Shown: positions 9,254 to 25,765, counted from the first letter of the stretch. The stretch is 35,987 bases of DNA from Nitrospirae bacterium JdFR-81 (GCA_002011735.1 MTOQ01000007.1:1-35987); one strand, 5' to 3'. Made by a program: numbers and translations. Notes: a model not told the origin generated them from the letters alone.

Positions 9254-9282
9254 AGTATATAACAAACCAGGGGTATATTCAT
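9254..9282 (-). promoter_or_regulatory. Candidate promoter for the radical SAM gene
   Basis: On the minus strand, ATGAAT (9282-9277, 3/6) and TATACT (9259-9254, 5/6) are 17 nt apart. Only 5 nt separate the -10 box from the ATG at 9248, and there is no Shine-Dalgarno. If used, the mRNA would be leaderless. The -35 is weak. Confidence 0.3.
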
Positions 9283-12200
9283 CATCCCTTTAGTAGATAC
9301 TCCCTCAACCATCCACCCTTCTGTCTCATATTGAGATTGCTCAGCTCCTTTGCAGCCCTTTCGAGGCTTATCCGCTCATCTGATAGGTCCTTATATATCC
9401 TGTCTGCCTTCTTCCTCCTCTTTACCGCATCGCCTATGTCCATGAATGATTCGATGGCATCTATCACCTTCACCATGAGGCCTGACCTCGGGTGTATCCC
9501 TGCCCTCTCCTTCACCCACTTCATCTGATTCTCAAGGTTGGACAGGGTGACCGTCAGCTCTGCCTGTGCCTTCTCGTTCTGTGCATGGGGCAGTGTCCTT
9601 GCCTTCTCGATGGTCTCCCTGACGAACTCCTCACACAGGATACCGAAATCCTGAAACACGGAGAGGCTGGACAGGGCCTCCTCAAACTCCTTCTCATCCC
9701 CTTTAAGTAGCTGGGTGCAGTAGTGGTGACATTTGTCCCATGCCTGCCACCTGTAAACAAAGTCCATACCCGTGCCCTTTATATTCTGTATGCCCATGAT
9801 GCGGTTGTGGAGTCCAGGGGGCGTCTCCTCTGTTATGATGTTTATTATCGTGTTGCCACTTGCATGAGGGTCCCATATGACGTGTATCTTTTTATTGAAC
9901 CATCTCCACATGGTCTCCCTGAACTCGGCCTCAAGCCTTTCATCCCCTGATGACCCTGCCTCCCTGACCTTCTTGATCAGGGATTCATATTCCCTGTTCA
10001 TATCACTGTAGTCTCTTATGTGTCTTATTATCCCCTCGCTGTAATCCCCGTATCCAAGCTCATTCAGCCTCTCCCTGAGCCTGTCTAAATCATCGGACAT
10101 GGAGACAAGGGCCTCTATCTGTTCATCCGGTTTAATCCCTATACCAGAGAGCATGGCCCTTAACCTGTTATCCACCTGCTCCTTTGTTATCGGTATCCTT
10201 AGTCTCCTTGCCAGTCTCTCCACGACCGACTCGGGTGAATGTGAGGCTGAGGGGCCTGACCAGGGGGATATGCGTGAGATATAGTCGTCCCATGCCTGTC
10301 TGATGTATCCAAGCAACCCCTTCAGGTTCGTCCCGATGAGGAAGTGTCTGTCTGCACTTATGTCCTCAACGATGATCCTTGCAAATACCTGTGATCTGGC
10401 GATCCTGTCAGCCCTGTTGTTGACAACGGTGCTGATCAGCTCACCTGGCCTGTTCATGTAGTCATGATCCCTGAACCCCATCCTTGCCCAGTTGGTGAGG
10501 CATCCATACCGTTCATTCGCGGACATACCATTGACGAACTCAAGCCTCCTTGTCCTTACAGGTGCAGGAGGGAATGCCTTGAGCACCCCGATATCAGGGA
10601 TCACCCTGTCCGCCATCTCCTTTATGGCAAAGTCCCTGTCTATGCCCAGCTCGTCGGCAAGGGCTAGGACGAGCGCGATGTTGTAGGGATGCTCTTCATA
10701 CGGGAACCTCTCCATGATGTCAGGGGTCAGGAGGCCGGCATCAAGCCAGTTTACAAACCTTACCCTCGTCCCGAGCTTCTTTGCAGCCTCTGCAAGGATG
10801 GGTTTCATCTCCTCCTCACTGCTGAGGAGGATCGCCGACTCAGGTATAAACTCGGTCATGACCTCTGCTATATTGATCCCTGCAGGCCCCTGGATGTCCT
10901 CGTGATCAGGGTATGTGTTTGTTATTGTGGATATATCATCCCTCGCCCACTTTCTCTGGAGTATCCTCACATATGAGGGTGTCAGACCCATACATTCCCA
11001 GAGGAAGACGTCGCACCTGAGTTTCTCGGCAAGCCGCATGAGGTTGTCCTGCTCCCATATGGTTGCCTTGTCATAGGGACGGAAGATAAAGAGTTCCGTG
11101 AGCTTGCTGAACTGGGTGCTGTAGAGGAAGAAGGCCTCACACCCGGTGGTCTTTGATATAAGGCTGTAGCCAAGTGCATTTATCAATGCTGCCTTGAGCC
11201 TCTCGGTGCCTGACTTCCCTCTGGTGCCCCAGCCCCCTATGACGAGGGGGAAGTTCGTCCTGGCCCTTCTTATGGTGATGCTCTGGAAGATGATGCTGAG
11301 GACAAAGGCTATTATGATGATACCTGTGAAGACGGCGAGCTCATAGAGGGAGTTCTTGTATACAGAGAAGAAGTAGTCCTTTATATTATTCAGTATATCA
11401 GGGCTCAGGAATCCTATCACAGGCACAAAGAACCTCCTGACAGCAGGATCCACAGGTGTCTCCTCTGTCCTCAGGGTCCACCCTGTGTGTGTGATCTTGA
11501 AGCCGAGCTTTGATATGGCCTCGATGTAAGCAGATGGCTTGAGCTGCATATCCTCATGCCAGTTTCTCAGCCTCGCATAATGTGCAAACCTGAGGGTGAG
11601 CTTCAGATATGCCTTCAGCCTCTTGAATAATGAGTCAGGTGGTTTTATCTCTGTGATACCCTCACTCGTGTATAACCTTACAGGGCCTTTATAGCCACGC
11701 CTCAGGGAGGAGATCAGTTCATCAACCAGGGGCAGGTATGGCCTCCAGCCTCCCTCTGAGGATATGTATAACGGCTCTCCAGGGACCTTTGTCTCGGTGA
11801 GTTCTGCCATAATGGAGGAGGGGATGTGTATGTTGCCATAGAAGCACCTCCCTGTTGTGTGTGGAAATGCCTGTCTCTTGTCAGGTGATGGGTGCAGGAA
11901 TTCATGGATGAGCCTCCAGAGTTTGAACCTGAAGACAGGCCCTTTTGTAATAAAGTATCTGCCTGTTATCTCCCTGCCAAGGTGGTATTCGAACTCCTCC
12001 TGACTCATCAGGGAGAGCACCCTGCACAGCCTCTCCTCTCCGAACTCCCTGATGAGGTCAGATGGGAGGTATCTCTTCTTCCCCCTCTCAAGCCCTTCCA
12101 GTTCGGTCTCCAGTATCTTTATCAGCCTCTGTGCACCGGTGTCATACAGGCCCCACAGCCTCTCCCTGCATCGTGATGCCCAGCGTCTCACAGGGATGCT

Positions 12201-13463
12201 TTCAGCGTTCTGGTGTAACCACTCCACCTCCTCCTTTATGGTGTTGAACCACTCCATGGCCATGTATTTATCGAGCGTGTTCAGCGCTGCCTCTGATGTC
12301 CTCACCACGGCCTCAAGGCCTGCCCGCTGGACGAACTCGTCCTTTTCGTTCCTGAGGCTCTCTGTGATGATCATGAGCATATCGTCAAATAGCTCGCCTG
12401 TCTTGATCACATTCTCTATCTCAAGCAGTGCCATGGCCCTGACCTGGGGCGAGGGGTCTTTGATGGCGAGCCTGTATAGCCACTCCCTTACATAATCTGC
12501 CGGTGCCTCTATCAGGGCGTGTGGCAGGGCCTGTCTCACATAGGGTGAGGGGTCCTCTGATGCCACGGGTATGAGGTCAAGGAGCTGGGGGAGCCTCCTG
12601 AGGTTGTTACCAAGCAGCCTTACGCAGTGCCTCCTCACAAAGAGGTCATCACCCCTCTGTGGCTCCTCAAGCCTCCTCCTGAGGGCCTTTACGAATGATG
12701 ATGGTGAGAGGCTCTCAAGGAGGTCAAGGGCCTCACGCTGGATCCAGACGTCCTGGTTGATATCGAGTGCGGAGCGGTAGATGTACTGGAGTATGCTGTC
12801 CTCCACAGCACCCTCCTGATACTCCTGGGGCATCGCCTTGAGTATCCTGCTCATGGCCCTGAAGGCGTTTAGACGGATGTTGGTCGGCACCTCATAGGAG
12901 AAGAAGGGGGTCAGTAGCTGTTCGATCTTGAAGTGGCGCCAGAGCCTTCTATAACCGAGCGCCTCACCATGTATGGAGATGAAGTCAGCGGCTATCCTGC
13001 CGAGGCAGTCAAGGCTGAGGGCGATCATCTTCTCTGTCTCAAGGAGTATCCTCCTGTATCTATCCGTGACGGCATCCTGGCCGAACCAGCGATTGAATGC
13101 ACGCCTGTCGCCCTTCAGTTGCCTTGGTGATGCACCAAGGTCCCTGGCATACTCAAGTATGTGTCTCCTTATGTCCTCGGTCGTGACGAGGCTCTGGAGG
13201 CCCTTTATGAACTCAAGGTGCTGCTTCTTCAGCTCCTCTGTCCTTGAGAGCTTGGTTTTTATGTTGTATGAGAGGAAGGCTATGAGCTCCCTCTGGAGCT
13301 CTGTGCGTTCATCAGGCAGTGGCCTGTCCGAGGCAGAAAGCCAGCTGAGGAATTCGTTGATGATCCCCTCTATCCTCCTTGCCTCCATCTTTGTGAAGAA
13401 TGGAGGCATGCCGGTGATCAGTAGCTCCTTTACCCTCTCTAACCCCTCTGCCTCTACCCTCAT
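9282..13463 (-). CDS. HEAT-repeat / PgsB (CapB)-like Mur-ligase-family amide ligase fusion
   Basis: A 1393-residue protein. Residues ~170-470 are helical HEAT-like repeats; ~470-700 is unassigned; a membrane segment lies at ~709-728 (GIIIIAFVLSIIF). The following ~380 residues match the poly-γ-glutamate synthase ligase PgsB/CapB: P-loop GGWGTRGKSGTERL with K750, KTTGCEAF, WECMGLTPSY (C824), NTYPDHEDIQGP, EFVNGMSANE and NNRADRIARSQVFAR. Each has a close counterpart in Bacillus PgsB, including the single membrane anchor directly before the catalytic domain. PgsB ligases use ATP to join glutamate residues by γ-amide bonds. Ordinary PgsB is ~390-450 residues, so the ~700-residue front and ~280-residue helical tail are extra. 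The ATG overlaps the previous stop by 4 nt. The substrate being glutamate is inferred. Confidence 0.85.
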   Translation of the reverse strand: MRVEAEGLERVKELLITGMPPFFTKMEARRIEGIINEFLSWLSASDRPLPDERTELQRELIAFLSYNIKTKLSRTEELKKQHLEFIKGLQSLVTTEDIRRHILEYARDLGASPRQLKGDRRAFNRWFGQDAVTDRYRRILLETEKMIALSLDCLGRIAADFISIHGEALGYRRLWRHFKIEQLLTPFFSYEVPTNIRLNAFRAMSRILKAMPQEYQEGAVEDSILQYIYRSALDINQDVWIQREALDLLESLSPSSFVKALRRRLEEPQRGDDLFVRRHCVRLLGNNLRRLPQLLDLIPVASEDPSPYVRQALPHALIEAPADYVREWLYRLAIKDPSPQVRAMALLEIENVIKTGELFDDMLMIITESLRNEKDEFVQRAGLEAVVRTSEAALNTLDKYMAMEWFNTIKEEVEWLHQNAESIPVRRWASRCRERLWGLYDTGAQRLIKILETELEGLERGKKRYLPSDLIREFGEERLCRVLSLMSQEEFEYHLGREITGRYFITKGPVFRFKLWRLIHEFLHPSPDKRQAFPHTTGRCFYGNIHIPSSIMAELTETKVPGEPLYISSEGGWRPYLPLVDELISSLRRGYKGPVRLYTSEGITEIKPPDSLFKRLKAYLKLTLRFAHYARLRNWHEDMQLKPSAYIEAISKLGFKITHTGWTLRTEETPVDPAVRRFFVPVIGFLSPDILNNIKDYFFSVYKNSLYELAVFTGIIIIAFVLSIIFQSITIRRARTNFPLVIGGWGTRGKSGTERLKAALINALGYSLISKTTGCEAFFLYSTQFSKLTELFIFRPYDKATIWEQDNLMRLAEKLRCDVFLWECMGLTPSYVRILQRKWARDDISTITNTYPDHEDIQGPAGINIAEVMTEFIPESAILLSSEEEMKPILAEAAKKLGTRVRFVNWLDAGLLTPDIMERFPYEEHPYNIALVLALADELGIDRDFAIKEMADRVIPDIGVLKAFPPAPVRTRRLEFVNGMSANERYGCLTNWARMGFRDHDYMNRPGELISTVVNNRADRIARSQVFARIIVEDISADRHFLIGTNLKGLLGYIRQAWDDYISRISPWSGPSASHSPESVVERLARRLRIPITKEQVDNRLRAMLSGIGIKPDEQIEALVSMSDDLDRLRERLNELGYGDYSEGIIRHIRDYSDMNREYESLIKKVREAGSSGDERLEAEFRETMWRWFNKKIHVIWDPHASGNTIINIITEETPPGLHNRIMGIQNIKGTGMDFVYRWQAWDKCHHYCTQLLKGDEKEFEEALSSLSVFQDFGILCEEFVRETIEKARTLPHAQNEKAQAELTVTLSNLENQMKWVKERAGIHPRSGLMVKVIDAIESFMDIGDAVKRRKKADRIYKDLSDERISLERAAKELSNLNMRQKGGWLREYLLKG

Positions 13464-16400
13464 CTCAAGACCTCTTTTATTATCCTGTTGTTCTCCTCCT
13501 CATAGGAGATATGCATCTGCCGCAGATCCCTGAAGCCTGTCTCTCCATAGGCAAAGTCCCTGTACCCCCTTGCCCTGCTGAGGTGGATGCTGAGATAGAA
13601 CCTGCCCGAGAAGCGGTTGATATTCAGGTGCCAGATGAATCTCAGTCCAGCCTCCACCCTCTTATAGAGGTTCAGCCACCTCTCAAATGATAGATCGAGC
13701 CCAATCCTCCTTGTGGTTATGTGGTCGCCCCTGTCCCTGTCAGGCAGGTAGTGCGTCTCCTGATACGAGAGGCCTGCCTGGAGGGGACCAATGAGCTGTC
13801 TCCAGCCTGCCTCGAGGCCGATGTTGTCAGGCCTGAGGGGGTTCAGGTCTTCATTGAGCACGACCTCTCCATGGAGTGAGATTATGCTGTCGAGCCATGG
13901 TCTGTAGAATAATGTGTCAGAGGCCCTCAGGCCGTATCTATGCTCTGCCTTATAAGGCGTGAATATATCCTGATCCACATCCTGGGGGCTGTAACCATTG
14001 TGGTCATCCATGCTCATCATCCTCAGGAAGGCGGCGATAGAGGGGGTGTGGTATGTCTTTGTCCCCAGCTCCTTCCTGTCTATGACAGAGGCATCCATGT
14101 TCAGGGAGTATTCATACCCTCCATCGATCGTGGGCCTCTGGACATACAGGGATGCATTGAGGTTATAGTTGTAAGGTGTCTCCAGGGGCCTGTATGTGAT
14201 GTGTCCTGAGGCACCGATGACAGGCCCTCCATGCTCCCTTATACGGCCAAGGAGCCTGAACCTCTTCAGGTTCCTTGAGGGTTCGTCAAAGAATCTGTGG
14301 GTGAGTCTGAATTCGATGAACTCCTCCATCCTCTCCTCTATCTCCACCTGCCTCCTCTTTACAAAGGCACCTGTTATGCTCCACGTCCCGTCCTCCTGTG
14401 AGCCAAGGGGGATTGCGTCATCAAATTCAAGGTGTCTTATCACAGGTGGCCCGTTCACCCTTACAGAGGGCCTCTCGGCCTCTTTATACTCAACGACAAA
14501 CCTCCTGCGTGGTGTCAATGGCCTCTCAGGTGCAGGCACCCTCCTGTAGAATCTGTACAGGGCCTCTCTCCAGGAGCCTCCTGGGTAGAAGTCGATGGTG
14601 TGGAGGCCTTCGTCTATACCCATGAAGCTCATGGTCTGTTGACCGTTGACCCTCTTCTCTATATAGAGCATCAAAGGCCCCTGAACCGCAATGGTCACAG
14701 GCTCATCCTGCGTTGCGAGGTAGTATCGCCTCTCGATCGTCTTTATCAATGGCCTCTCTTTGCCCTGGGCGTCCTCCCACAGCCTGACACGGAGGAACTG
14801 GTTTGTCACAGGCCTGTTTATACCTATCCTCAAATAGTGCTCCCCCTCGCCGACCCTGAGGTGGAGCCTCACGATCCTCTTGCCATCCTCACCGATCCGC
14901 AGATCCCTCACCCTCTCGCCGTCGATCTCAAAGGATATTCCCATGGGCTCAATCGGAAGGTATGCGATGCCCTCAAGCGATATCTCTGCCTCTATATCCT
15001 TCTCCCTGAGGTTTTTCATGTCCAGGACGATCCTCTCATAGCCATAAAGCAGTTGTTCTCCTATCATGAGTGGTCGTAGCATCGATGTCCTGATCCTCAT
15101 CTCAGGCACGGATGATGCCTCACCTGTTGTCCTCAGGATCCTGATCCCTGCTGAGCTCAGTATGTCCTCAAGCAGGACGAGCCTGGTCTTCCTGTAGAAC
15201 CTGCTGATCAGCCTCTTAAGCCTGGGGATGTGGCGATTATTTATGAATATCTCCTCTGCCCTCTTGAGATTGGAACCGAATGATCCAGGTTCATGCTCTG
15301 CCTTCCACAGGAGCTCGATCATCTCCCTTATGGGCTCCTGACCGTATCGATCCCTTATGGAGAGTAACGGGGAGGCCTCGGTCTTTACAAAGACCTCATC
15401 GATGATAGACCTTATCAGCTCCCTGAGGCCACCACCTGTGATGGCAGAGAGTGTATCTATGCTGAGGGGTGGGAGTATGGAGACCCTTACCTCGGGCTCG
15501 GCTGAATACAGGCTTACAAGCAGGGGGATGGTGTCTGAATACACCTCAATGTGGTGGAGGCCTTCTGTCACATCATACGCGAGCATAACCCTCTGCCCTG
15601 CCTTTAGTCCCCTCCTTCCTGAGACCATGAAGGTGTCTGAGGGGAGGTTGTCTATCAGGGGATAATGCCTTGCCACGCCATTGTCCCTCAGCTCTATCCA
15701 TCCGTTGTATGCATCGGCAGGCCCTTTGTCGAAGAGGGGCCTCACCTCTATCCTGAGCCTTGTCGGTCCGTAGACCCTGAATCTCACGGTCCTTCCCTTT
15801 TTAGACAGGAACATCCTGTGGTACAGGTTTCTTGCCCTGTTGTAGAGGATGAGGGCGCCAGAGGAGTCGATGAGGAGTTCATCGGCGGTCCTCCATCTGA
15901 ATGGCCCTGGATGGGCCTTCTGCCACCTCTGCCACCTCTTTATCAGGGCATATATATCCCTGTCACCCGCATTCCTGAGACCCCTGTATATTGAGTCTGC
16001 CTCAACCATGGAGTTATACCACTCAATGCCCTCTCCCCCTGCCTTCATGAACAGGTCGAGGGCCTCCCTGTACCTTCCCTGCCTGAGCATACTCTTCGCC
16101 ATCCAGAGGTTCCTCTCTTCGGGTGTCCTGAGCCTCTCTATGAGGAGGTTAAATGCCTGCCACCATGACTCAACAAGGCATGCCCTCAGGAGGGCCTGGA
16201 CAGGCTGGGACTCCTCGGGTAGCAGGAGGCCTGCCTTGAGTGCCATCTCGTACTCACCCTCATCTATGAGCAGTCCGAGGAACTCAGGGAGTATGCTCAT
16301 ATCATGGGTCTTCAATATATAGGTGGAGTACAACCCGATGAGCCCTTCGTCATCTCTGACCTCTTTATAGTAGTCTGAGAGCCTGTGGAAGGCCTTGTTA

Positions 16401-18823
16401 CTTATCTTCTTGGATCGTGAATATACAAAGAGCCCCTTCAGGATGTTCTCCATAAGAAAGTGCTCTCCAGCAGACCTCAATATATCGGCCTGTAATAACT
16501 CCAGCCTCTCCCTATCGATCCCCTCTGCCTGATACAGGAGTGGCTGCAGTCTCTCAAGGGCACCGATGTATCTGCCTTCTTTATAGAGCCCTATCACGGT
16601 ATCAAGGGTATCATTGGAGGCCCTATATGCGTTGTCGTTCGGGTTTGACTCTGGCTTTGCGATGCCTGCCTTGAACCTCCTTGCCCTTGACTCGATGAGC
16701 CGATACAGGGGGATGAGGTCATTGAGCATCTCGATCCTTATAATATCCTCCATCTCAAGGAACCTCATGGGGAGGTATATCCTCTCTCCTGGACGGAGGG
16801 TATTTATATCCCCTATGTGGGGGTTGAGTATCCTGAACCTCTCTATATATTCGTTGTATATCTCGCTCGCCTTCAGTCCCATCACCCTCCTGAGTATACC
16901 CTCAAGGGTGTCACCTGGCATTATCGTATAGATATGGGGGAAGCCCCAGTGCTGGCTGTGCCTCAGCCTTTTGATCGCACCCTCACCATATCTTATGAGT
17001 TCATACAGGAGCTCTGACCGCGCCGGGATTGACTTTATATACCTCATGTATGCACTCGGGGGGAGGCTGTAGGGCCTTGATACCCTGAGCTGCAGGGATA
17101 CAAGGGGTGTGCTGCTGCCTTCCTTCCATAGCCTTATTGTCCTTGTGTCTTCAGGAAGGGGTATCTCGATGTATCCTGCATCGATAAGCCGAGATGGTGG
17201 CCTCAGGGATGAGAACCTTCCACTGAGTGTGGGGGGCATAGCACTGTATTGCATGGATGAGAGCATCCTCAGTGCCTCCTCGGACTGTGTGGGCATGAGA
17301 TCGTCCTCTCCTGTCTCCTCTGCTTTTAGTCTCAGTATCCTTGGGGCCCTATCATCCATCTGTAACATCAACACGGTGCCTTCCATCCCATCCTTCCCAA
17401 CCACTATCCTCAGGAAGGATGGTGATGGCCTCTCAGGGAGATGGTATGTGAGTGGGTCGTCCCTGTGGTTGGAGAGCCCCGTGAAGACAGAGGAGGGCAG
17501 GAGGCTCAGGGTGTCCTCAAGGTGTTCTGGATGGAGGAGGATATCGGATGGCTGGTCTGGATCCCTCAGTGATCGGGTTATGAAGTAGTAGAGCCTGTTT
17601 CCTGCGGATGGGGCCTGGCTGTCAGATGGTATGTCCCTGTAGAAGGTGTGTGATAGATAGTATAGGCGTGCAATATCTGAGGCATCGTGGATATCCCTGG
17701 TGATATCCCTTAAAAGCATCGTCCCAACGATCCCGCCCTCATACAGGGTGTTGTCCTTTATGAGGGCGTATGTCAGGGATTCTGAGAGGCCTGGTGAGGG
17801 GGTGTCGTTGATCAGGTCAAAGAGCCTGTGTCTGTCCACACCCCATGGAGACTTCCTGAGCAGAGGAGGGAGTCCCAGCCGTCTGACATCCCTTGCCCTG
17901 ATACATGGTTCATTTATGGACAGGAGGTGGTCAGGCTCATCCCTCCTGAGGAGCCTTATGTAGAGTATCGCATCTGACTCTATGGTCAGATCATGTTCTC
18001 CCTCAGGTATATTCATAAAGTCCCTCTGTCTCCTCCCGATGGTCTGTTCCTTTCCGTCCACATAGACAGGTGTGGTTATGTAGGGGAGGGTTTCATGGTC
18101 CAGGTTCTTGAATATCATCCCGTCTATCCTTACCTGTATGTGGTATGGCTGTAGCCTCACAGGATCAGAGGGGTTATAGAGGAGCATGCTCTCAAGGGAG
18201 AAGGTGGCACCACCCTCCACCCTTACAGTGATGGGTCTGTAGGGCATAAGGAGATAGAAGGCCTCTGAGGGGTGTTTATCAGCCATGCCTATCCAGACCC
18301 TCTCGGTGGGTAACCCTATCAGGTTCCTGTAGGGTGCAACCTGATCTATGTATTCGTGCCTTGAATAAAAGAGCCCTATCTCCACCCCCTTCCTGCAGGT
18401 GCCCTCGATCATCACGACATAGGAGAGCTTCTCAGGAGGAGTGATGAGGATGGACCTCTTTTCGTGATCCATAGTGTATGGATATGTGATGTACAGACCT
18501 GAGCCGTTTGAGAGGTATATGCTTGGCTCATCTCCATTGAAGGCCCCACGGATATTGTATATCCTCAGAGAGCTGCCCTTATAGAGCCTTACCCTCACAT
18601 AGTCTCTACAGCCGAGGCTGACCGTGTGGAATCCGTATTCTCTGTTATAAGATGGTCTCTTGCCATCGAGCCACGGCTCCTTATCCTCTATGTTGTCCCA
18701 TCTGAGGGGGATATGGAACTGTGCGTTCAGCCTCAGCGCGGTCTCATCAATCGCCCCTCGGGCACTGAGGGGAAAGAGGACGAGGATCATGATTATGAAG
18801 AGTCTCGTCACTGGATGAGGCAT
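13460..18823 (-). CDS. Giant secreted LysM protein with β-barrel-like C-terminus
   Basis: A 1787-residue protein of unknown function. It begins with a signal peptide (LFIIMILVLFPLSARGA). Residues ~30-620 are β-rich. A LysM domain at ~629-690 (IYTIMPGDTLEGILRR to GERIYLP) suggests peptidoglycan binding. About 710-960 is TPR-like helical repeat. From ~1020 it returns to β-sandwich-like segments with a recurring EGxHxxxI motif near 270, 1088, 1324 and 1404. The last ~300 residues alternate hydrophobic and polar residues with aromatic belts, as in outer-membrane β-barrels, but the C-terminus lacks the usual terminal Phe. It overlaps the hydrolase gene upstream by 16 nt and the PgsB-like gene downstream by 4 nt. 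I infer a periplasm-to-outer-membrane component of the polymer export system. Confidence 0.75.
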   Translation of the reverse strand: MPHPVTRLFIIMILVLFPLSARGAIDETALRLNAQFHIPLRWDNIEDKEPWLDGKRPSYNREYGFHTVSLGCRDYVRVRLYKGSSLRIYNIRGAFNGDEPSIYLSNGSGLYITYPYTMDHEKRSILITPPEKLSYVVMIEGTCRKGVEIGLFYSRHEYIDQVAPYRNLIGLPTERVWIGMADKHPSEAFYLLMPYRPITVRVEGGATFSLESMLLYNPSDPVRLQPYHIQVRIDGMIFKNLDHETLPYITTPVYVDGKEQTIGRRQRDFMNIPEGEHDLTIESDAILYIRLLRRDEPDHLLSINEPCIRARDVRRLGLPPLLRKSPWGVDRHRLFDLINDTPSPGLSESLTYALIKDNTLYEGGIVGTMLLRDITRDIHDASDIARLYYLSHTFYRDIPSDSQAPSAGNRLYYFITRSLRDPDQPSDILLHPEHLEDTLSLLPSSVFTGLSNHRDDPLTYHLPERPSPSFLRIVVGKDGMEGTVLMLQMDDRAPRILRLKAEETGEDDLMPTQSEEALRMLSSMQYSAMPPTLSGRFSSLRPPSRLIDAGYIEIPLPEDTRTIRLWKEGSSTPLVSLQLRVSRPYSLPPSAYMRYIKSIPARSELLYELIRYGEGAIKRLRHSQHWGFPHIYTIMPGDTLEGILRRVMGLKASEIYNEYIERFRILNPHIGDINTLRPGERIYLPMRFLEMEDIIRIEMLNDLIPLYRLIESRARRFKAGIAKPESNPNDNAYRASNDTLDTVIGLYKEGRYIGALERLQPLLYQAEGIDRERLELLQADILRSAGEHFLMENILKGLFVYSRSKKISNKAFHRLSDYYKEVRDDEGLIGLYSTYILKTHDMSILPEFLGLLIDEGEYEMALKAGLLLPEESQPVQALLRACLVESWWQAFNLLIERLRTPEERNLWMAKSMLRQGRYREALDLFMKAGGEGIEWYNSMVEADSIYRGLRNAGDRDIYALIKRWQRWQKAHPGPFRWRTADELLIDSSGALILYNRARNLYHRMFLSKKGRTVRFRVYGPTRLRIEVRPLFDKGPADAYNGWIELRDNGVARHYPLIDNLPSDTFMVSGRRGLKAGQRVMLAYDVTEGLHHIEVYSDTIPLLVSLYSAEPEVRVSILPPLSIDTLSAITGGGLRELIRSIIDEVFVKTEASPLLSIRDRYGQEPIREMIELLWKAEHEPGSFGSNLKRAEEIFINNRHIPRLKRLISRFYRKTRLVLLEDILSSAGIRILRTTGEASSVPEMRIRTSMLRPLMIGEQLLYGYERIVLDMKNLREKDIEAEISLEGIAYLPIEPMGISFEIDGERVRDLRIGEDGKRIVRLHLRVGEGEHYLRIGINRPVTNQFLRVRLWEDAQGKERPLIKTIERRYYLATQDEPVTIAVQGPLMLYIEKRVNGQQTMSFMGIDEGLHTIDFYPGGSWREALYRFYRRVPAPERPLTPRRRFVVEYKEAERPSVRVNGPPVIRHLEFDDAIPLGSQEDGTWSITGAFVKRRQVEIEERMEEFIEFRLTHRFFDEPSRNLKRFRLLGRIREHGGPVIGASGHITYRPLETPYNYNLNASLYVQRPTIDGGYEYSLNMDASVIDRKELGTKTYHTPSIAAFLRMMSMDDHNGYSPQDVDQDIFTPYKAEHRYGLRASDTLFYRPWLDSIISLHGEVVLNEDLNPLRPDNIGLEAGWRQLIGPLQAGLSYQETHYLPDRDRGDHITTRRIGLDLSFERWLNLYKRVEAGLRFIWHLNINRFSGRFYLSIHLSRARGYRDFAYGETGFRDLRQMHISYEEENNRIIKEVLR

Positions 18824-19683
18824 CCCTCGAATCCCCTGTAAAGTGATCTATCATTTACCAGCCTGTCCCGTATCGCCCTGCTCATCTCTATATGCACAAA
18901 GCCATTGAAGCCCATCTCATTCAGTATCCCTGCGATCGAATTCTTTCGCCCCCCAAGCTCCCTTACATCGTATGGATAGAGGTTCACTCTCTCTCCCATG
19001 CTATTTTTGAGACACCTGTATATAGTGGTGGTTATGGAGGAGGCGGTCGATCTGCCAGAGCTTATAATCACATCACTCTCCCTCCCTGATGGCGTCTTCC
19101 TCTTTGCCCTTGAGAAACCATGTAGCTGGATTATATAGCCTGATGGATGGGTCTCTGCGAATGTCTTTGCAAACACGGTGAAATAGCTTTCCCTGATGTG
19201 TGCCATGTCTGCATCAACGGTGGTGCCACTGTCTGAATACTGCCGTCTTACGGTATTGAATATCACGGCCTCTGCCCTGCTATCAAGGAACAGCCTGAGG
19301 CCGATCTTGCGGGTGTGGATGTCTGTGAATGAATGTGGCACCTGTATGACAAACCCCCTGTAATCCTCAAGCCTGAATATCATGAGCCCCCTGCCTGTCT
19401 TCCTCTCATCCTCCATGAGTATTATGAGCCTTTCACCGTCATGGCTTATCTGGATGGGCCTGAGGCCGATCTTCCTTGACAGTGCCTCCACCCTCTCGTT
19501 CAGTACCCCCCTGAACAACGATCCAAGGAGGGTCTCTGCATCCTTCAACTCCTCATCTGTTGGGGGGATATATATACCACCCTTAAATGCATCAGAGAGG
19601 ATGCCCTCTATATCCGAGACCTCACCCCTTAATGGCAGGATAAGGATTGTTATGATGGTCAAGACACTAATATATATCCTCAT
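18808..19683 (-). CDS. Secreted N-formylglutamate-amidohydrolase-like hydrolase
   Basis: A 291-residue protein from ATG 19683, chosen because it starts a clear signal peptide (MRIYISVLTIITILILPL); an upstream in-frame ATG lies at 19728. The mature part has the three motifs of the N-formylglutamate amidohydrolase/zinc-carboxypeptidase-like fold: VPHSFTDIHT (H117), IIQLHGF (H188) and GFVHIEMSRAIR (E266). The family cleaves amide bonds next to glutamate. In a PgsB/PgsC-like operon, and secreted, it is a natural candidate for trimming, releasing or recycling a γ-glutamyl-type polymer; that role is inferred. Its sequence is also related to two domains inside the PgsC-like protein of this operon. 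It overlaps the genes on both sides, so it is translationally coupled. Confidence 0.7.
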   Translation of the reverse strand: MRIYISVLTIITILILPLRGEVSDIEGILSDAFKGGIYIPPTDEELKDAETLLGSLFRGVLNERVEALSRKIGLRPIQISHDGERLIILMEDERKTGRGLMIFRLEDYRGFVIQVPHSFTDIHTRKIGLRLFLDSRAEAVIFNTVRRQYSDSGTTVDADMAHIRESYFTVFAKTFAETHPSGYIIQLHGFSRAKRKTPSGRESDVIISSGRSTASSITTTIYRCLKNSMGERVNLYPYDVRELGGRKNSIAGILNEMGFNGFVHIEMSRAIRDRLVNDRSLYRGFEGCLIQ

Positions 19684-22123
19684 AGTGTAAGGCCCTTTCA
19701 TTGTAGAATCTGAACTCCTCATACTCACCAGGGGTGACCCTGTGGAGGGAGATGTAGCCCGTGCCTGAGACAGGCCTGAACTCTATCGTGTATTGGCCCT
19801 GTGGCAGGTCATCCCCTATCGGGATAAAGAATAACTGCCCTGGCTGGAGGCGTATGCTTCGGGCGTGTAAAACGGAGAGAGACCCTGAGTTATCAGGTCT
19901 TATGCTGAATCGCCTCCTGAGGAATGTCCATTTATTGAATGGCCTGAAGCCTGCCTGCCTGATGGCCTCTATGCTCACATCGATGATGCTCCTCTGATCA
20001 CTCCCTGAGGGCGCATAGAACCTGACACTGAGGATGTCCTCAATGGGTTTATCCTTCGTATATATAAACCTGAGCCCCTCCCTCTTCAGCCTGTTTGTGA
20101 GTCTCTTGAAGAGCACAGGGCCACCCTGATGATATATGTTGTTTATATAGAATCCTCCAGCACGGGTGGTCTCAATCCGTATCCTGTGTTCACCTCCCTT
20201 TACAGGGGGTAGTCTCACCTCCCCTGTCCTTCCGTAGAGGGTCCTATCCAGTGCAGGGAGACCATCTATATACACCCTCAATCCTGCCTCGCCCTCTTCC
20301 CTGAATATATATAGTAGCCTCAGGGGTATCATCTCAAGCCCCTTGATCTCCCTGACGGTGATGTTGTGTTCTGCCCCTGGCTCTAAAGGGAAGTAATAAT
20401 CAGGTGATAGCCTCTCAGGTCTCACCACCTTTATCTCATCTGTAAGGACATAGTATGCCTGGTAGTCGCCCACAGGTGTATAGTCCTCCCAGGCGTATCT
20501 GCCCTGTATCAGCTCCTCCCTCCTCTGGGGTGGTCTCCTGTTTATAATGATTATCATGGATCGGGCATCGTATATGAGTGACCAGTACCTCTCGGGCCTC
20601 AATGCATACCAGGATGGCTCCTTCTCCTCGATGGGTGTTGATGGTAGATAGTCCTCAGGGACCCTTGTGGTCTTGGCCATCCCCTCCGGCCTTGTATAGC
20701 CTGCCACCAGCACCTCTGTAGTGGATGACAGGACCATCCTCCTTGCCTCGGATGGCAGATAGAAATAGTATTCCTGTGGCTCTGAGACCTCGACATCAGG
20801 ATAGTTCCCTGACAATACATCATAGCCTGATGGGATGGGATTGAGGGGGAGGCTGCCTGTGTGTATTACCCTGTTGTCCTCATTTAGTATCTCGTATCTT
20901 ACATGTGTGTCAGGCACGATGCCCTTCCTCAGCAAGACCCTGAGCGTGAGCTTGAAGGGCGTGGGGGTCTTGTTATGATGGGATATACGGAATGTCACGG
21001 GTCTATCGTGGCTGGTGATGAATGTCCTTATATAGATGGGCTCGGGTGTTATGTCCGTCACTCCTTTATCATTTATAAGGAAGACCTTCATCCCGACAGG
21101 GTCCTCACTGTAGATATCTATGAGGCCTGTGTCGAAGAAGGACTCCATCGTCGTCTCCTCCCTGCTCCTCCATCTGATGGTCCTCTCAATATACTGATCT
21201 ATCCCCCTCCCGTACCAGGAGAGCCTCAGGTCATGGGGTTGTTCTGTTGAGTTGTTGTGGAACTCCATCCTGATCCTGCCCCCTCCTTCCGGAACAGGGA
21301 CGGTTACATGATGCCCTTCTTTTATGAACACGCCTATCGGTGGGATGTATACATCCACTTCTTCTGCCTCAACCTCCTTCAGGACATATAGCTTTCTTGA
21401 GATGAAGTCCCTTCCCTCAGCGCCCAGTGGGCCAAGGGGTCTCCACTGGCGCTGTAGGAGCTGTTTCTTCTCAAACTCTGTCAGGAGCTGTGGTGGATAG
21501 ACATTACCCATTGCCATCCTCTCCTTCTTCTTCTCGCTGAATCGCCTCCACATGTAGCCGGGCACCTCTTTTTTTGGTTCATACCTTATATAGACCCTTA
21601 TGCACACGTCTCTTATATCCCTGTCCTTCTTTATGAGTTTGAACCTTATGGCATCAGCGTCACCGAGGCTGGAGATGTTTATCCTGAACTCCCTTGAATC
21701 TGCAGGTATGAGGTCTGGTTCTGTGTAAAAGGATGAGGTGAACTCCCCCCACCTTTCATTTCTGTAGAATGTCACCTTTGAACGGAGATGGTGTGTCCTG
21801 TCTATGAGCACCTCTCCATCTCCACCTGTTATCTGATACCTGAGTGTATACCACCAGTCCCTGTCTCCCTTGAGGTCTATACGCCTTGGGAGGTTTGCAT
21901 TTGTTACGACCCTCAGGAGCCTGCCCCTGAACTCAAAGGGGAAGACCAGCCATCCATCCTCTGTTATCACATAGGAGAGGCTGATGGTGGACTCTTCTAT
22001 CATCTCCCTGTTGACATATGCCCTGATCTTCTTGCCCGTAACAATAAAGTAATAAAGGGGTAAGAACCTGTAGAGGAGGTAGATGATAACGAGTCCTGCT
22101 ATGAAGAGCTTAATATACCTCAA
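19667..22123 (-). CDS. Inner-membrane-anchored β-rich periplasmic protein, unknown function
   Basis: An 818-residue protein not matching any family I recognise. One N-terminal membrane segment (LFIAGLVIIYLLYRFLPLYYFIV, here split as residues 5-27) is followed by ~790 residues predicted to face the periplasm, mostly β-strand-like, with repeated short sandwich motifs. One of these, KGGEHRIRIETT near residue 650, resembles the EGxHxxxI motif of the 1787-residue partner. There are no cysteines in obvious pairs and no catalytic motif. Its ATG overlaps the end of the PgsC-like gene by 14 nt, and its end overlaps the hydrolase gene. It may be a periplasmic scaffold or polymer-binding arm that links the inner-membrane exporter to the LysM/barrel protein; this is inference from position and architecture only. 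Confidence 0.7.
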   Translation of the reverse strand: MRYIKLFIAGLVIIYLLYRFLPLYYFIVTGKKIRAYVNREMIEESTISLSYVITEDGWLVFPFEFRGRLLRVVTNANLPRRIDLKGDRDWWYTLRYQITGGDGEVLIDRTHHLRSKVTFYRNERWGEFTSSFYTEPDLIPADSREFRINISSLGDADAIRFKLIKKDRDIRDVCIRVYIRYEPKKEVPGYMWRRFSEKKKERMAMGNVYPPQLLTEFEKKQLLQRQWRPLGPLGAEGRDFISRKLYVLKEVEAEEVDVYIPPIGVFIKEGHHVTVPVPEGGGRIRMEFHNNSTEQPHDLRLSWYGRGIDQYIERTIRWRSREETTMESFFDTGLIDIYSEDPVGMKVFLINDKGVTDITPEPIYIRTFITSHDRPVTFRISHHNKTPTPFKLTLRVLLRKGIVPDTHVRYEILNEDNRVIHTGSLPLNPIPSGYDVLSGNYPDVEVSEPQEYYFYLPSEARRMVLSSTTEVLVAGYTRPEGMAKTTRVPEDYLPSTPIEEKEPSWYALRPERYWSLIYDARSMIIIINRRPPQRREELIQGRYAWEDYTPVGDYQAYYVLTDEIKVVRPERLSPDYYFPLEPGAEHNITVREIKGLEMIPLRLLYIFREEGEAGLRVYIDGLPALDRTLYGRTGEVRLPPVKGGEHRIRIETTRAGGFYINNIYHQGGPVLFKRLTNRLKREGLRFIYTKDKPIEDILSVRFYAPSGSDQRSIIDVSIEAIRQAGFRPFNKWTFLRRRFSIRPDNSGSLSVLHARSIRLQPGQLFFIPIGDDLPQGQYTIEFRPVSGTGYISLHRVTPGEYEEFRFYNERALHYEDIY

Positions 22124-25100
22124 ACTCCCCCCTGAATTTTAAGAATCCTGCCTTTGTGTCTATAAATCGCGAGACCTCCCTCCTGTGCAGTGTCTCCCTG
22201 CTCAGAGTGATCTCTGCCTCGGGTTGCCTTGGCAGGAGGTTGGCGACCATGACGAGCCTGTCGGTGAAATAGACAAAGAGGAAGGACTGTTTTGTATTTA
22301 TGTCGATGACCCTCCTGAGCCTGAAGAGCCTCCAGCCTGACCTTATGTTATACAGCTCAACGATATCCTGGGTCTCAGCGTATCTCTTTATGGCCTCGAT
22401 CATTGGCGACGGCACTATGGAGGAGTCCCCGATGAGGCCTGAGCCCATTATATAGCTATACAGGTCAGCCTCTGTGGTCGGGATGCCGAGGGCCCTGAAC
22501 TGGGCATTCTGCCATCTGTTTTCGGTCTGTTGTCTGTAGGTGGTCCTTGCAAAGGGCGAGAGCCACAGGATGGCGAACTCCTTGTTTGAGGTCTGATCGA
22601 TGTAGAACAGTGGTGGTGTGAAGCTCGTCTCATACCCTGATGTCTCCTCCCTTCCATCCACAAAACCGCTCCTCAGGCCATCCTCATCCAGTATATCTAT
22701 CAATGCCCTGCCAAGCGGGCTGAGGGCGTCCCTCTGCATGATGCCGCTGTCAAAGGTGAGCAGGACATCCTCCTTTGGCAGCTTCCTCTCAGGCCTCAGG
22801 CCAAGTGCCCTGCACTGGAGGCTCATAAAGGCCTCTTCTCTGAACTCCCTCAACAGGACCTGGTTAACGAGGTTAAAGAGGTTCTCCTTGTTGTCCATGA
22901 TTATAAGGTCTGAGCTCAGATCGGCGTTTGCATGGGGGTGGGTGCCTCCGATGAGCAGCGCCTTTGCCTTGAGCCTTGCAAAGAGGGATACACCATACTC
23001 AAAGACATTGAGCTCAAAGAGTGGACGGGGTATCTGTATAATATAGTTATTCGCCTCACCGAGCCTGAATACATAGGTACCCCAGTATCTCCTGTGCCTG
23101 AGGTTCTCGTCCTCAACCAGTATTATGAAGTCCTCCCCGGACAGCCTGTCCCTGTAGAGGACTATCCTGTATCCAAGCATGGCAGAGGCAGAGGCGATCA
23201 CCCTGAGCTCACCAAGGCCCTTTGCCGTCCACCTGCCATCTGAATATTCGGTCTGTGACACCCTGATGAGGGGGGTGAGGACCTCCTCATCCATAAAGAG
23301 GAGTTCCTCAAGCATGGCCTTTTTGTACAGGTTTGAGCCCTTCTCTGCAATCAACCACTTGCTTCTGAGGAGCCAGTCCTGGAGGTAGCCGTCGATCCGC
23401 TGCTGTCGGATCGTCACCGAGACGTCGTATTGTGCATATACAGGCTTAAATAGTAGCTCCTTTATATCACTCCTGTTGAGGAAGATCTCTGCAAACCCTG
23501 ATGCCATGGACTCCCTCTGGATGTTCGGGAACGGTGTCCTGCCCCAATCCACTGTGATCCCTCCGATCAGGCCTCTCAATGTGGAGAGGTCGAGCCCATA
23601 GGGCAGTCTCGCCTTTACAAGCAGTAATGATCCAGGCTCCTTGAGCTCCACCCCTTTGATCTCAGGCCTCTGGCCTGTCACCCATCTGATACTCTCAATG
23701 TTGTATCCCCTCACCTGGAGGATGTTCTGATGCGCGATCAGCCTGTGGAACTCCTGGAACAGTGAGTCGTGCCTGATGAGGGGGTTGTGTGTCTTGCCCT
23801 GAGGTGTCTTTATGCTTATGCCACCGATTGCCATGGCATATCCGTTCAGGGTCTTAAAGAGCCTCGCACCTGCCTCAAGACTCCCCCATTCATCAATGGG
23901 CAGCGGGACCTCGATCACCAGGCCACCATCCCTTTCAGGGTTGAAGACATAGGAGCCCCATCCGTGGTTTGCCTCATCCTGACTGATATAGATGTAACCC
24001 TCTTTCAGTATATGTATCGTGTAGTCTATCTTTGAGAATAACGCCTGTGCCCTGGACAGATACGAACGGTCATTGTTCCTGATATAATCCATCACCTCCC
24101 TCATGCCCGCCTTGAATATCTCTGTCTCCTTTGGTGTCGGTGGAGAGAGGGTGGTCATCCTGATGCTCTGGTATATCCTCACCTTCTCCTCCCTCACCAT
24201 ATCAAAGATGCCCTTCTCCACCCTGAGTATCTCTTCCTTCCCTTCCTCACCTGCCTGCAGTCCTGTGGTGAAGAAGGATATATTCAGGAATGTGAGGCTG
24301 AAGCCGATGACACTGGCTATGATCATCGCCACGAACGAGGTCTGGACGACGGATCTTGTCACCTTGATGGTTATGTCCTTGTCGTGCATCTTTATTGCAA
24401 CGAGCGTGGGCAGGAGATAGCCGAATCCGTAGTAGTCGGATATCTTCTCCCCTGGCATGAGGTAGATGATGAGATAGGAGATCATGTATTTATACAGGAA
24501 GCTTATGGTGAAGAAGAGGAGTATCTTCCTTCCCTTCTCTATCGTTATGTCTCTGAATATGGGCAGCCTCAGTGCGAGCTTACCAAGCTGGAGTATGATG
24601 AGTGACTCCACCATGGTAGCCGCTATCTTGAGGGGGTTATACCAGAGCAGGGCGAGGAGCGAAGGGATCAGGATGCCGCTGTATTCCCAGCCATACTGTA
24701 GGTTCATCCTTGAGGCTATGAAGCTTGTGGTTATAAGTATGATATAGGACTTGGGGCTTGCGAGTATGGAGGTGGCGATGTCCTCATATATATAGCTAAG
24801 GTTGCTTATGGTGAAGTTTGTGTATCCCATCAAGAGGTATTTGACCGCTATGTAGGTCGCTGCAATCGTGATGAACTGCGGGATCACACCCCTGAAGAAG
24901 CCTGGCTTCCAGTACTGGTTTGCCATTAATGCAACGATGATGAGGCCGAAGCTGTGGAGGTTGTTACGATAGTCGAAGTTTATATAGAACCTGTTGTTCA
25001 GGAATTCTCCTATGTACGGGAGCAGGAAGACATCGAAGAGGATCCTCACAAACATGCTGAATATGAGGAAGGCAAAGAAGCGGTCCCTCCCGAACAGGTT

Positions 25101-25364
25101 CGTGAGCCTCAAAGGGCCTGAGATATACTCGGACAGCGCCCATACCAGGAAATAGGTGACAGCGCTCTCTATGAATATCACAAACGCCGCCCATGGCTTT
25201 ACAATGAGCAGGGGCACGAGGTAGCCTGGCACCACAAGCCCTGACAGCACCCATCCAAAACGGAGATTAAAGAAGACCGATACTATTACCCCGATAAAGA
25301 CAGTGGTTGTTACTGAACTGGCGAGGCTTCCTTCTGGGAAGATATTGAGGATTCCATGTTCCAT
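22110..25364 (-). CDS. PgsC (CapC)-like membrane protein with duplicated TM unit and two pseudo-hydrolase domains
   Basis: A 1084-residue protein. Residues ~20-180 match PgsC/CapC, the membrane subunit of poly-γ-glutamate synthase: SGLVVPGYLVPL (41-52), RDRFFAFLIF, and HSFGLIIVALMANQYWKPG. Residues ~205-360 repeat the same plan (YSGILIPSLLALL at 228-240, GFGYLLPTLVAIK at 313-325), so the membrane part is a tandem duplication; ordinary PgsC is ~150 residues. The soluble remainder (~375-1084) contains two copies (~406-640 and ~680-945) of the fold of the hydrolase encoded downstream, both without its catalytic His motifs (VPH becomes VPL at 486-488 and IPR at 778-780). GAGGT lies just before the ATG. 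First of five overlapping genes; 32 nt follow the response regulator. Confidence 0.85.
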   Translation of the reverse strand: MEHGILNIFPEGSLASSVTTTVFIGVIVSVFFNLRFGWVLSGLVVPGYLVPLLIVKPWAAFVIFIESAVTYFLVWALSEYISGPLRLTNLFGRDRFFAFLIFSMFVRILFDVFLLPYIGEFLNNRFYINFDYRNNLHSFGLIIVALMANQYWKPGFFRGVIPQFITIAATYIAVKYLLMGYTNFTISNLSYIYEDIATSILASPKSYIILITTSFIASRMNLQYGWEYSGILIPSLLALLWYNPLKIAATMVESLIILQLGKLALRLPIFRDITIEKGRKILLFFTISFLYKYMISYLIIYLMPGEKISDYYGFGYLLPTLVAIKMHDKDITIKVTRSVVQTSFVAMIIASVIGFSLTFLNISFFTTGLQAGEEGKEEILRVEKGIFDMVREEKVRIYQSIRMTTLSPPTPKETEIFKAGMREVMDYIRNNDRSYLSRAQALFSKIDYTIHILKEGYIYISQDEANHGWGSYVFNPERDGGLVIEVPLPIDEWGSLEAGARLFKTLNGYAMAIGGISIKTPQGKTHNPLIRHDSLFQEFHRLIAHQNILQVRGYNIESIRWVTGQRPEIKGVELKEPGSLLLVKARLPYGLDLSTLRGLIGGITVDWGRTPFPNIQRESMASGFAEIFLNRSDIKELLFKPVYAQYDVSVTIRQQRIDGYLQDWLLRSKWLIAEKGSNLYKKAMLEELLFMDEEVLTPLIRVSQTEYSDGRWTAKGLGELRVIASASAMLGYRIVLYRDRLSGEDFIILVEDENLRHRRYWGTYVFRLGEANNYIIQIPRPLFELNVFEYGVSLFARLKAKALLIGGTHPHANADLSSDLIIMDNKENLFNLVNQVLLREFREEAFMSLQCRALGLRPERKLPKEDVLLTFDSGIMQRDALSPLGRALIDILDEDGLRSGFVDGREETSGYETSFTPPLFYIDQTSNKEFAILWLSPFARTTYRQQTENRWQNAQFRALGIPTTEADLYSYIMGSGLIGDSSIVPSPMIEAIKRYAETQDIVELYNIRSGWRLFRLRRVIDINTKQSFLFVYFTDRLVMVANLLPRQPEAEITLSRETLHRREVSRFIDTKAGFLKFRGEFEVY

Positions 25365-25396: not shown

Positions 25397-25765
25397 CTAA
25401 ATCCCCTCCAGTCTCTTGAAGAGCTCCTGTACGGCTACAGGTTTATATATAATGTCCGTTGCACCTGCATTGAGTATATCCTCCCTTATCTTCGGGTCAT
25501 TTACGGATGTCAGGACGATCACAGGAAGGTCCATCTTTACCTCGTTCCTCAGCCACTTTATAAACCTGAGGCCGTCCATGAAGGGCATCATCATGTCACA
25601 TATTATGATGTCGAACCTCTCCCTCTGCAGTAGCTCGATCGCCTTCAGTCCGTGCTCTGCGATGGAGGTCTCATACCCATGGGAGTTGAGCATCATGGAC
25701 AGAAGGCTCTGTATCGCAAGGTCATCCTCGACTATGAGTATCCTCTTCTTGCTCTCCATGGCCAC
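25397..25765 (-). CDS. Single-domain response regulator
   Basis: A 122-residue CheY-like receiver domain with no output domain. All key residues are present: acidic pair E13/D14-D15, phospho-acceptor D57 (IIICDMMMP), T86 and K108 (YKP). Start is GTG 25765 or ATG 25759; neither has a strong Shine-Dalgarno. It follows the histidine kinase by 50 nt and precedes the PgsC-like gene by 32 nt on the same strand, so it probably receives phosphate from that kinase. Having no DNA-binding domain, it must act through protein contacts, for instance on the capsule-type machinery, another kinase or a downstream relay. Confidence 0.93.
   Translation of the reverse strand: MAMESKKRILIVEDDLAIQSLLSMMLNSHGYETSIAEHGLKAIELLQRERFDIIICDMMMPFMDGLRFIKWLRNEVKMDLPVIVLTSVNDPKIREDILNAGATDIIYKPVAVQELFKRLEGI

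Follow-up and report, generated by a model that had tools for sequence, protein, structure and literature searches.

A 35,987-nucleotide stretch of DNA from Nitrospirae bacterium JdFR-81 (GCA_002011735.1, MTOQ01000007.1:1-35987), here called the window, carries on its minus strand five open reading frames, labelled A to E and running from 25364 to 9282 with A the most upstream, that together resemble a poly-γ-glutamate synthase extended into a candidate export system. An earlier note on this DNA had described five overlapping genes of 1084, 818, 291, 1787 and 1393 residues with overlaps of 4-17 nt, and the reading frames are as it stated, the A/B, B/C, C/D and D/E overlaps measuring 14, 17, 16 and 4 nt. 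As to the extent of the unit, its five genes stand, but it overlooked the CHASE2 kinase, and often a response regulator, that lie directly upstream of A; the functional unit reaches upstream to 28494 and includes the response regulator and the CHASE2 histidine kinase. The genome harbouring the window measures 2.05 Mb and belongs to a family shared with two groundwater 'Nitrospirae' bins. The features are the following.

25816..28494, minus strand: CHASE2 sensor histidine kinase, 892 residues (CHASE2 4.2e-11, HATPase_c 2.2e-7)
25397..25765, minus strand: single-domain response regulator, 122 residues (PF00072 2.4e-29)
22110..25364, minus strand: gene A, 1084 residues, two CapC/PgsC domains in tandem and a periplasmic tail (PF14102 1.8e-43)
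24891..25295, minus strand: CapC domain 1 of A (PF14102 1.0e-27)
24372..24719, minus strand: CapC domain 2 of A (PF14102 2.2e-18)
23658..24053, minus strand: pseudo-amidohydrolase repeat 1 of A, C-like (BLASTP to C, E 3e-5)
22494..23342, minus strand: pseudo-amidohydrolase repeat 2 of A (profile-profile comparison with C, 98% probability, E 2e-13)
19667..22123, minus strand: gene B, 818 residues, TTG start, N-terminal membrane anchor, beta-rich periplasmic body
18808..19683, minus strand: gene C, secreted, zinc-amidohydrolase-like, 291 residues from an ATG (49-sequence family, model, fold matches)
13460..18823, minus strand: gene D, 1787 residues, signal peptide, beta-rich regions, LysM-like segment, alpha-solenoid, C-terminal barrel
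15869..17026, minus strand: middle of D, a weak LysM-like segment and then an alpha-solenoid/TPR-like region (profile matches)
13463..14476, minus strand: C-terminal beta-barrel of D, residues 1450-1787, 14 predicted strands (AlphaFold, PDB matches)
9282..13463, minus strand: gene E, long PgsB/CapB-type Mur ligase, 1393 residues (TIGR04012, HEAT_2)
12309..12578, minus strand: HEAT-repeat match in E (PF13646, 39.8 bits)
10314..11321, minus strand: ligase domain of E, with P-loop GTRGKS, ECM, TNTYPDHED and NNRADR motifs

The two end genes had been assigned to PgsC/CapC and PgsB/CapB, and profile searches do return these families, though at scores under the equivalog cut-offs. Gene E is laid out as a HEAT-repeat N-terminal part (HEAT_2, 5.5e-10 in a Pfam profile search), one transmembrane helix, the ligase domain and a conserved C-terminal extension, and its match to TIGR04012 (PgsB) covers residues 715-1050 at 2.4e-60 and 204.3 bits. 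The enzyme looks intact to judge from its residues, since 43 ligase positions with 90% or higher conservation across 72 long E proteins are identical in two canonical PgsB proteins of the same class; conserved elements include the P-loop GxRGKS, KTTG, TNxxxDH and RxDR. The E alignment found no match in the PDB as a sequence profile. There was no long E among 72,556 plasmids, where matches were confined to the ligase domain.

Gene C, which would be 306 residues long from an alternative GTG start at 19728, carries a predicted signal peptide or anchor, as do B and D. Across its 49-sequence family H132, D136, R162, D174, H203, N263, E281 and R287 (306-residue numbering) are invariant; comparison with M14 enzymes suggests that H132, D136, H203 and E281 are of the sort that would bind metal and take part in catalysis. 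An AlphaFold model built from the 49-sequence alignment (pLDDT 92.2) finds its best PDB match in CCP5 (8v3p), a deglutamylase whose structure contains a Glu-peptide transition-state analogue; Csd4 and Atu2144 (2odf), the latter N-formylglutamate-amidohydrolase-like, match too, and a search of a viral library with C likewise returned N-formylglutamate amidohydrolase entries. The fold matches reach E 6.6e-5 and a probability of 1.0 but at a low TM-score of about 0.38, so that the model supports a carboxypeptidase/N-formylglutamate-amidohydrolase fold class for C while the particular enzyme is not fixed. It is plausible that C combines the fold class and the conserved residues of a metal-dependent amidohydrolase, with a predicted metal site. 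Sequence searches gave no PDB match by profile and no Pfam family common to the 49 members, which return scattered single matches only.

The first gene had been called CapC-type, which holds (148.2 bits against PF14102, where the cut-off is 27) but falls short of its content, as A contains two tandem copies of the CapC domain followed by pseudo-amidohydrolase domains. By profile-profile comparison the A tail is related to C (98% probability, E 2e-13), and at least one more such copy is present. In repeat 1 LQVR stands where C has QLHG; in repeat 2 H203 is replaced by R852, an invariant arginine, and E281 by a tryptophan, which is not acidic; the position of H132 is arginine in most A members. 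Given that a putative metal ligand and the catalytic glutamate are thus lost, these appear to be catalytically dead copies of C, and the tail should be unable to cut. Relatives of A are present in all 21 operon genomes searched, the full-length ones at 31-47% identity to the window copy by alignment. The A sequence profile gave nothing meaningful against the PDB.

Gene D begins with a signal-peptide-like segment and ends in 338 residues modelled by AlphaFold as a 14-strand barrel (pLDDT 91.8), which matches OmpG (3.2e-9), AlgE (4.9e-7) and BcsC (1.1e-6) in the PDB. OmpG-type porins score best, and the barrel fold alone therefore does not single out exporters. Ahead of it, the profile of the middle region matches designed solenoid, TPR and PPR proteins (up to 2.7e-4), with TPR_2 at 0.038 in the window copy and TPR matches that are weak and confined to few D members. 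A predicted outer-membrane beta-barrel behind a probable alpha-solenoid, the BcsC-like arrangement, is what the barrel model and the profiles indicate for D. Sequence similarity to exporters of the BcsC, AlgE or PgaA type was not found, and the barrel profile gave nothing meaningful against the PDB. The 'secreted amidohydrolase' and 'beta-barrel' of the earlier note are backed by models and fold matches for C and D, but its LysM assignment in D fared worse: the match is weak (0.0041, and 17.5 bits where 20.9 is the cut-off) and is confined to the window copy, one of 33 members, and LysM was dropped as a defining feature of D. One Halomonadaceae D has a SPOR domain in the same region as the LysM-like segment of the window. 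Gene B has a predicted N-terminal membrane anchor and a body judged beta-rich by inspection only; its sequence profile gave nothing meaningful against the PDB, and B, C and D matched no known sequence family. In Methylococcales (L040, L042, L045, L061) D is split into two genes, the second starting like a lipoprotein with an LLSGCS-type lipobox. The D of Vreelandella massiliensis is apparently split as well, at L058:6634-6724, with RSEEHTSELQSQ / DRKSTRLNSSH peptides; because we take these peptides to be translated sequencing-adapter read-through, this split is probably an assembly artefact.

The breadth of the system was assessed by a scan of 84,980 species, which yielded 254 relatives of long E, and the results given here rest on the best 80 of these 254. 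By name the 80 belong to Pseudomonadota, Planctomycetota, Acidobacteriota, Thermodesulfobacteriota, Verrucomicrobiota, Campylobacterota and Myxococcota; the window's own lineage is the eighth phylum with long E, and all eight are regarded as diderm. Upstream DNA of 9 kb or more was available at 55 loci; in 38 of these, which come from several diderm phyla, A-B-C-D-E stand on one strand at median gaps of -4, -9.5, -6 and -6 nt, and the recurrence of this order excludes chance. Within the Halomonadaceae, A, B, D and E are each present in three of 201 genomes, the same three every time, and the remaining E and B matches are short and weak. The co-occurrence of the five genes, which the earlier note had proposed as a check, is therefore borne out both by the order kept across diderm phyla and by the perfect agreement of A, B, D and E in this family. 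Of 21 loci, 20 have a relative of the CHASE2 kinase (1e-86 to 4e-17) immediately upstream of A, and nine have a response regulator relative at the corresponding place; the order kinase-regulator-A is found in sphingomonads and Acidobacteriota too. Long E is present in 3 of 296 genomes of the window's phylum. The occurrence of the operon is sporadic, and what is conserved is a block of five to seven genes. Among cultured bacteria, Methylovulum miyakonense and Halomonas daqiaonensis have all of A to E. Distance correlations among the five families are positive (Spearman 0.34-0.70) but confounded by species kinship, and they are not used as proof.

Departures from this layout are also seen, mostly with the genes remaining close to one another. 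Two assemblies (G008 and G019) have long E and lack A; the order is rearranged in Acidobacteriota and Silicimonas, where A, B and E are kept, and in Sulfidibacter it runs E-kinase-regulator-A-B, then CapA, then D. A sphingomonad/Erythrobacter version (L086, L092, L093, L098, L100, L102, L103, L107) consists of the kinase, A, a B of about 260 residues, C and E, and no D barrel was found anywhere in the genomes of these loci. Vreelandella massiliensis has two copies of the operon (L072, L058), and Sulfidibacter corallicola has two A and two D genes.

The absence of PgsA/CapA, another claim of the earlier note, holds for the window, where PF09587 has no match, and not beyond it. On another contig the window genome encodes a 769-residue CapA lipoprotein (G000:C10, L137:9138-11447), so that 'no CapA' at the genome level is rejected; in Silicimonas, Sulfidibacter and Ramlibacter, CapA adjoins the operon or is found close to it. 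Of 24 operon genomes, eight encode a strong or moderate relative of the long CapA, and the 40 relatives give weak matches at most. A requirement for CapA is likewise rejected, as PF09587 matches nothing in 9 of 22 operon genomes, and CapA is an optional partner. Its absence from the operon is compatible with synthesis because in Bacillus pgsBC suffices without pgsA, yielding L-rich poly-γ-glutamate (PMC6029982); by this precedent an operon lacking CapA would be expected to give an L-rich polymer. About 1 kb from the CapA of the window genome lies a gene for a secreted, C-like protein of 516 residues (L137:12475-14025), and the pair are possibly accessory parts of the system.

Taken together, these data are best explained by a trans-envelope machine of diderm cells for the synthesis and secretion of a γ-linked polyglutamate-type polyamide, a reading to which we assign a probability of roughly two in three. 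E and the CapC part of A would polymerise the chain at the inner membrane, as PgsB and PgsC do in Bacillus. The tail of A may bind the acidic chain without cutting it, a conserved arginine standing in place of the putative metal-ligand histidine, while B, anchored in the inner membrane, and the solenoid of D would bridge the periplasm. The chain would then exit via the D barrel, as cellulose does via BcsC. C may trim, release or clear the polymer, and the CHASE2 kinase, together with the regulator where present, would turn the system on upon an envelope signal. Since E forms a separate clade and both A and E fall under their equivalog cut-offs, we infer rather than assign the chemistry of the polymer, polyglutamate.

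Several findings weigh against a secreted polyglutamate. E scores below the TIGR04012 equivalog cut-off of 222.7 both in the window (204.3 bits) and in six relatives (173-216 bits), A reaches 65.6 bits against TIGR04011 where the equivalog cut-off is 96.45, and a very long, fully supported branch (100/100) parts long E from canonical PgsB in the tree; the joined amino acid could therefore differ. Further, E has a single clear transmembrane segment (residues 708-726) placed after an N-terminal part of some 700 residues, and the structural matches of C stay at low TM-scores. Finally, the D barrel is missing genome-wide from nine alphaproteobacterial operon genomes that keep A, B and E, in eight of which B is short. 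Either another porin serves there or export via D is not universal. The proposal of one machine in the earlier note is thus supported as such, but qualified by the absence of the D barrel from these nine genomes and by a polymer that is only presumed to be polyglutamate.

The same machine might assemble another monomer, be it an amino or hydroxy acid other than glutamate or glutamate along with a second component, and so make some other anionic polyamide. The distance of E from canonical PgsB on its 100/100 branch, the scores of A and E under both equivalog cut-offs and the lack of Bacillus counterparts for B, C and D all speak for such a polymer, which we nonetheless consider unlikely given the 43 ligase positions in common with canonical PgsB and a C protein whose best PDB match is a deglutamylase and which matches an N-formylglutamate-amidohydrolase-like protein as well. 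A somewhat slimmer chance attaches to a polymer that is kept in the periplasm, or attached to the peptidoglycan or to the outer membrane, and serves an osmotic or mechanical role, with D as an anchor instead of a pore. The LysM-like segment of the window D and the SPOR domain of the Halomonadaceae D suggest peptidoglycan binding, and the nine alphaproteobacteria do keep A, B and E without the D barrel; against this, D, whose 14-strand barrel follows a solenoid, is laid out like BcsC and other polymer exporters, and it is found in most loci. That the genes are mere neighbours with separate envelope functions, or a decayed or moonlighting relic, is hardly credible, for although in G008 small opposite-strand genes, some of them toxin-antitoxin-like, part D from E (L025:9086-12605) in an assembly without A, B and C, and although the order is rearranged in Acidobacteriota and Silicimonas, the G008 D sits at a contig end, the rearranged loci retain A, B and E and, in Sulfidibacter, have D close by, and the overlapping genes in kept order at 38 of 55 loci across phyla, with the perfect co-occurrence in Halomonadaceae, largely refute this reading.

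With the secreted polyglutamate-type polyamide as the preferred reading, the system can be set beside those already described. The polyglutamate capsules known best are those of Bacillus, which has a single membrane. Like the PgsBC(A)E and CapBC(A)DE systems of B. subtilis and B. anthracis, the locus has a Mur-type ligase, a CapC unit, shared motifs and sometimes a CapA-type protein (PF09587). Unlike them, it has a ligase that is threefold longer and bears a HEAT region, a CapC that is doubled and continues into pseudo-amidohydrolase domains, three envelope proteins of unrelated kinds, one of them with an outer-membrane barrel, a kinase upstream, CapA outside the operon core and a separate deep clade of E. 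With the export systems of cellulose (BcsC), alginate (AlgK-AlgE) and poly-N-acetylglucosamine (PgaA) it shares an inner-membrane synthase, an outer-membrane barrel, a putative periplasmic hydrolase and, to judge from weak profile matches, perhaps a periplasmic solenoid; here, however, the synthase is an ATP-dependent amide ligase, B has no counterpart there, and profile searches with A to E matched no glycosyltransferase family. C appears to resemble CCP5 and other M14 carboxypeptidases and the N-formylglutamate amidohydrolases in predicted fold class and in a similar pattern of His, Asp/Glu, Glu and Arg, but differs in matching no profile of these families, the similarity being local (TM-score about 0.38).

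Diderms may also carry the canonical form. Two genomes of the window's class (G127 and G155) are diderm and have a short canonical PgsB with PgsC and no adjacent B, C, D or long E. The capB-capC-capA set of Cloacimonadota is canonical and is described as the typical Gram-positive organisation (PMC13082233), and surveys of capsules count CapB/CapC in many diderms (PMC5542703). A paper on the Lipocone (eLife, PMC12419801) was set aside, as its 'CapC' matched through the unrelated name 'CapCone'. No published description of the A-E gene set was found in a literature search conducted mostly without subscription papers and without bioRxiv, in agreement with the earlier note, which knew of no system with these components; nor did the searchable literature yield an account of a polyglutamate chain crossing the outer membrane, or of a dedicated system for it. 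The A-E system would work like a polyglutamate synthase coupled to an exit of the BcsC type, yet it fails the PgsB/PgsC equivalog tests. That it constitutes a separate, ancient class of polyamide export, defined by a Mur-type ligase with a doubled CapC, a pseudo-hydrolase-guided path, a solenoid-barrel pore and its own CHASE2 kinase, we hold to be slightly better than an even bet.

The implications extend beyond a single genome. The operon is a candidate answer to how a polyglutamate chain crosses the outer membrane, uniting a ligase-driven polymerase with a solenoid-barrel exit of the cellulose/alginate type, and it adds three unnamed protein families as well as a conserved fusion of a membrane synthase subunit with inactive hydrolase domains. 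Its carriers, among them methanotrophs, halophiles, sulfur oxidisers and Pirellulaceae, are candidates for a search for new anionic biopolymers.

Some minor observations concern neighbouring and single genes. A B12-binding radical SAM gene on the same strand (window 7773-9248) begins 33 nt past E; no conserved association of this gene with E was observed at other loci. Protein P0001, searched singly against the 40 relatives, gave no orthologue. At L063:2368-8715 (minus strand) lies a protein of 2115 residues with DUF748/TamB-like, POTRA and Omp85 matches, of which TamB and DUF748 are weak; from its domains it looks like TamA and TamB in one chain.

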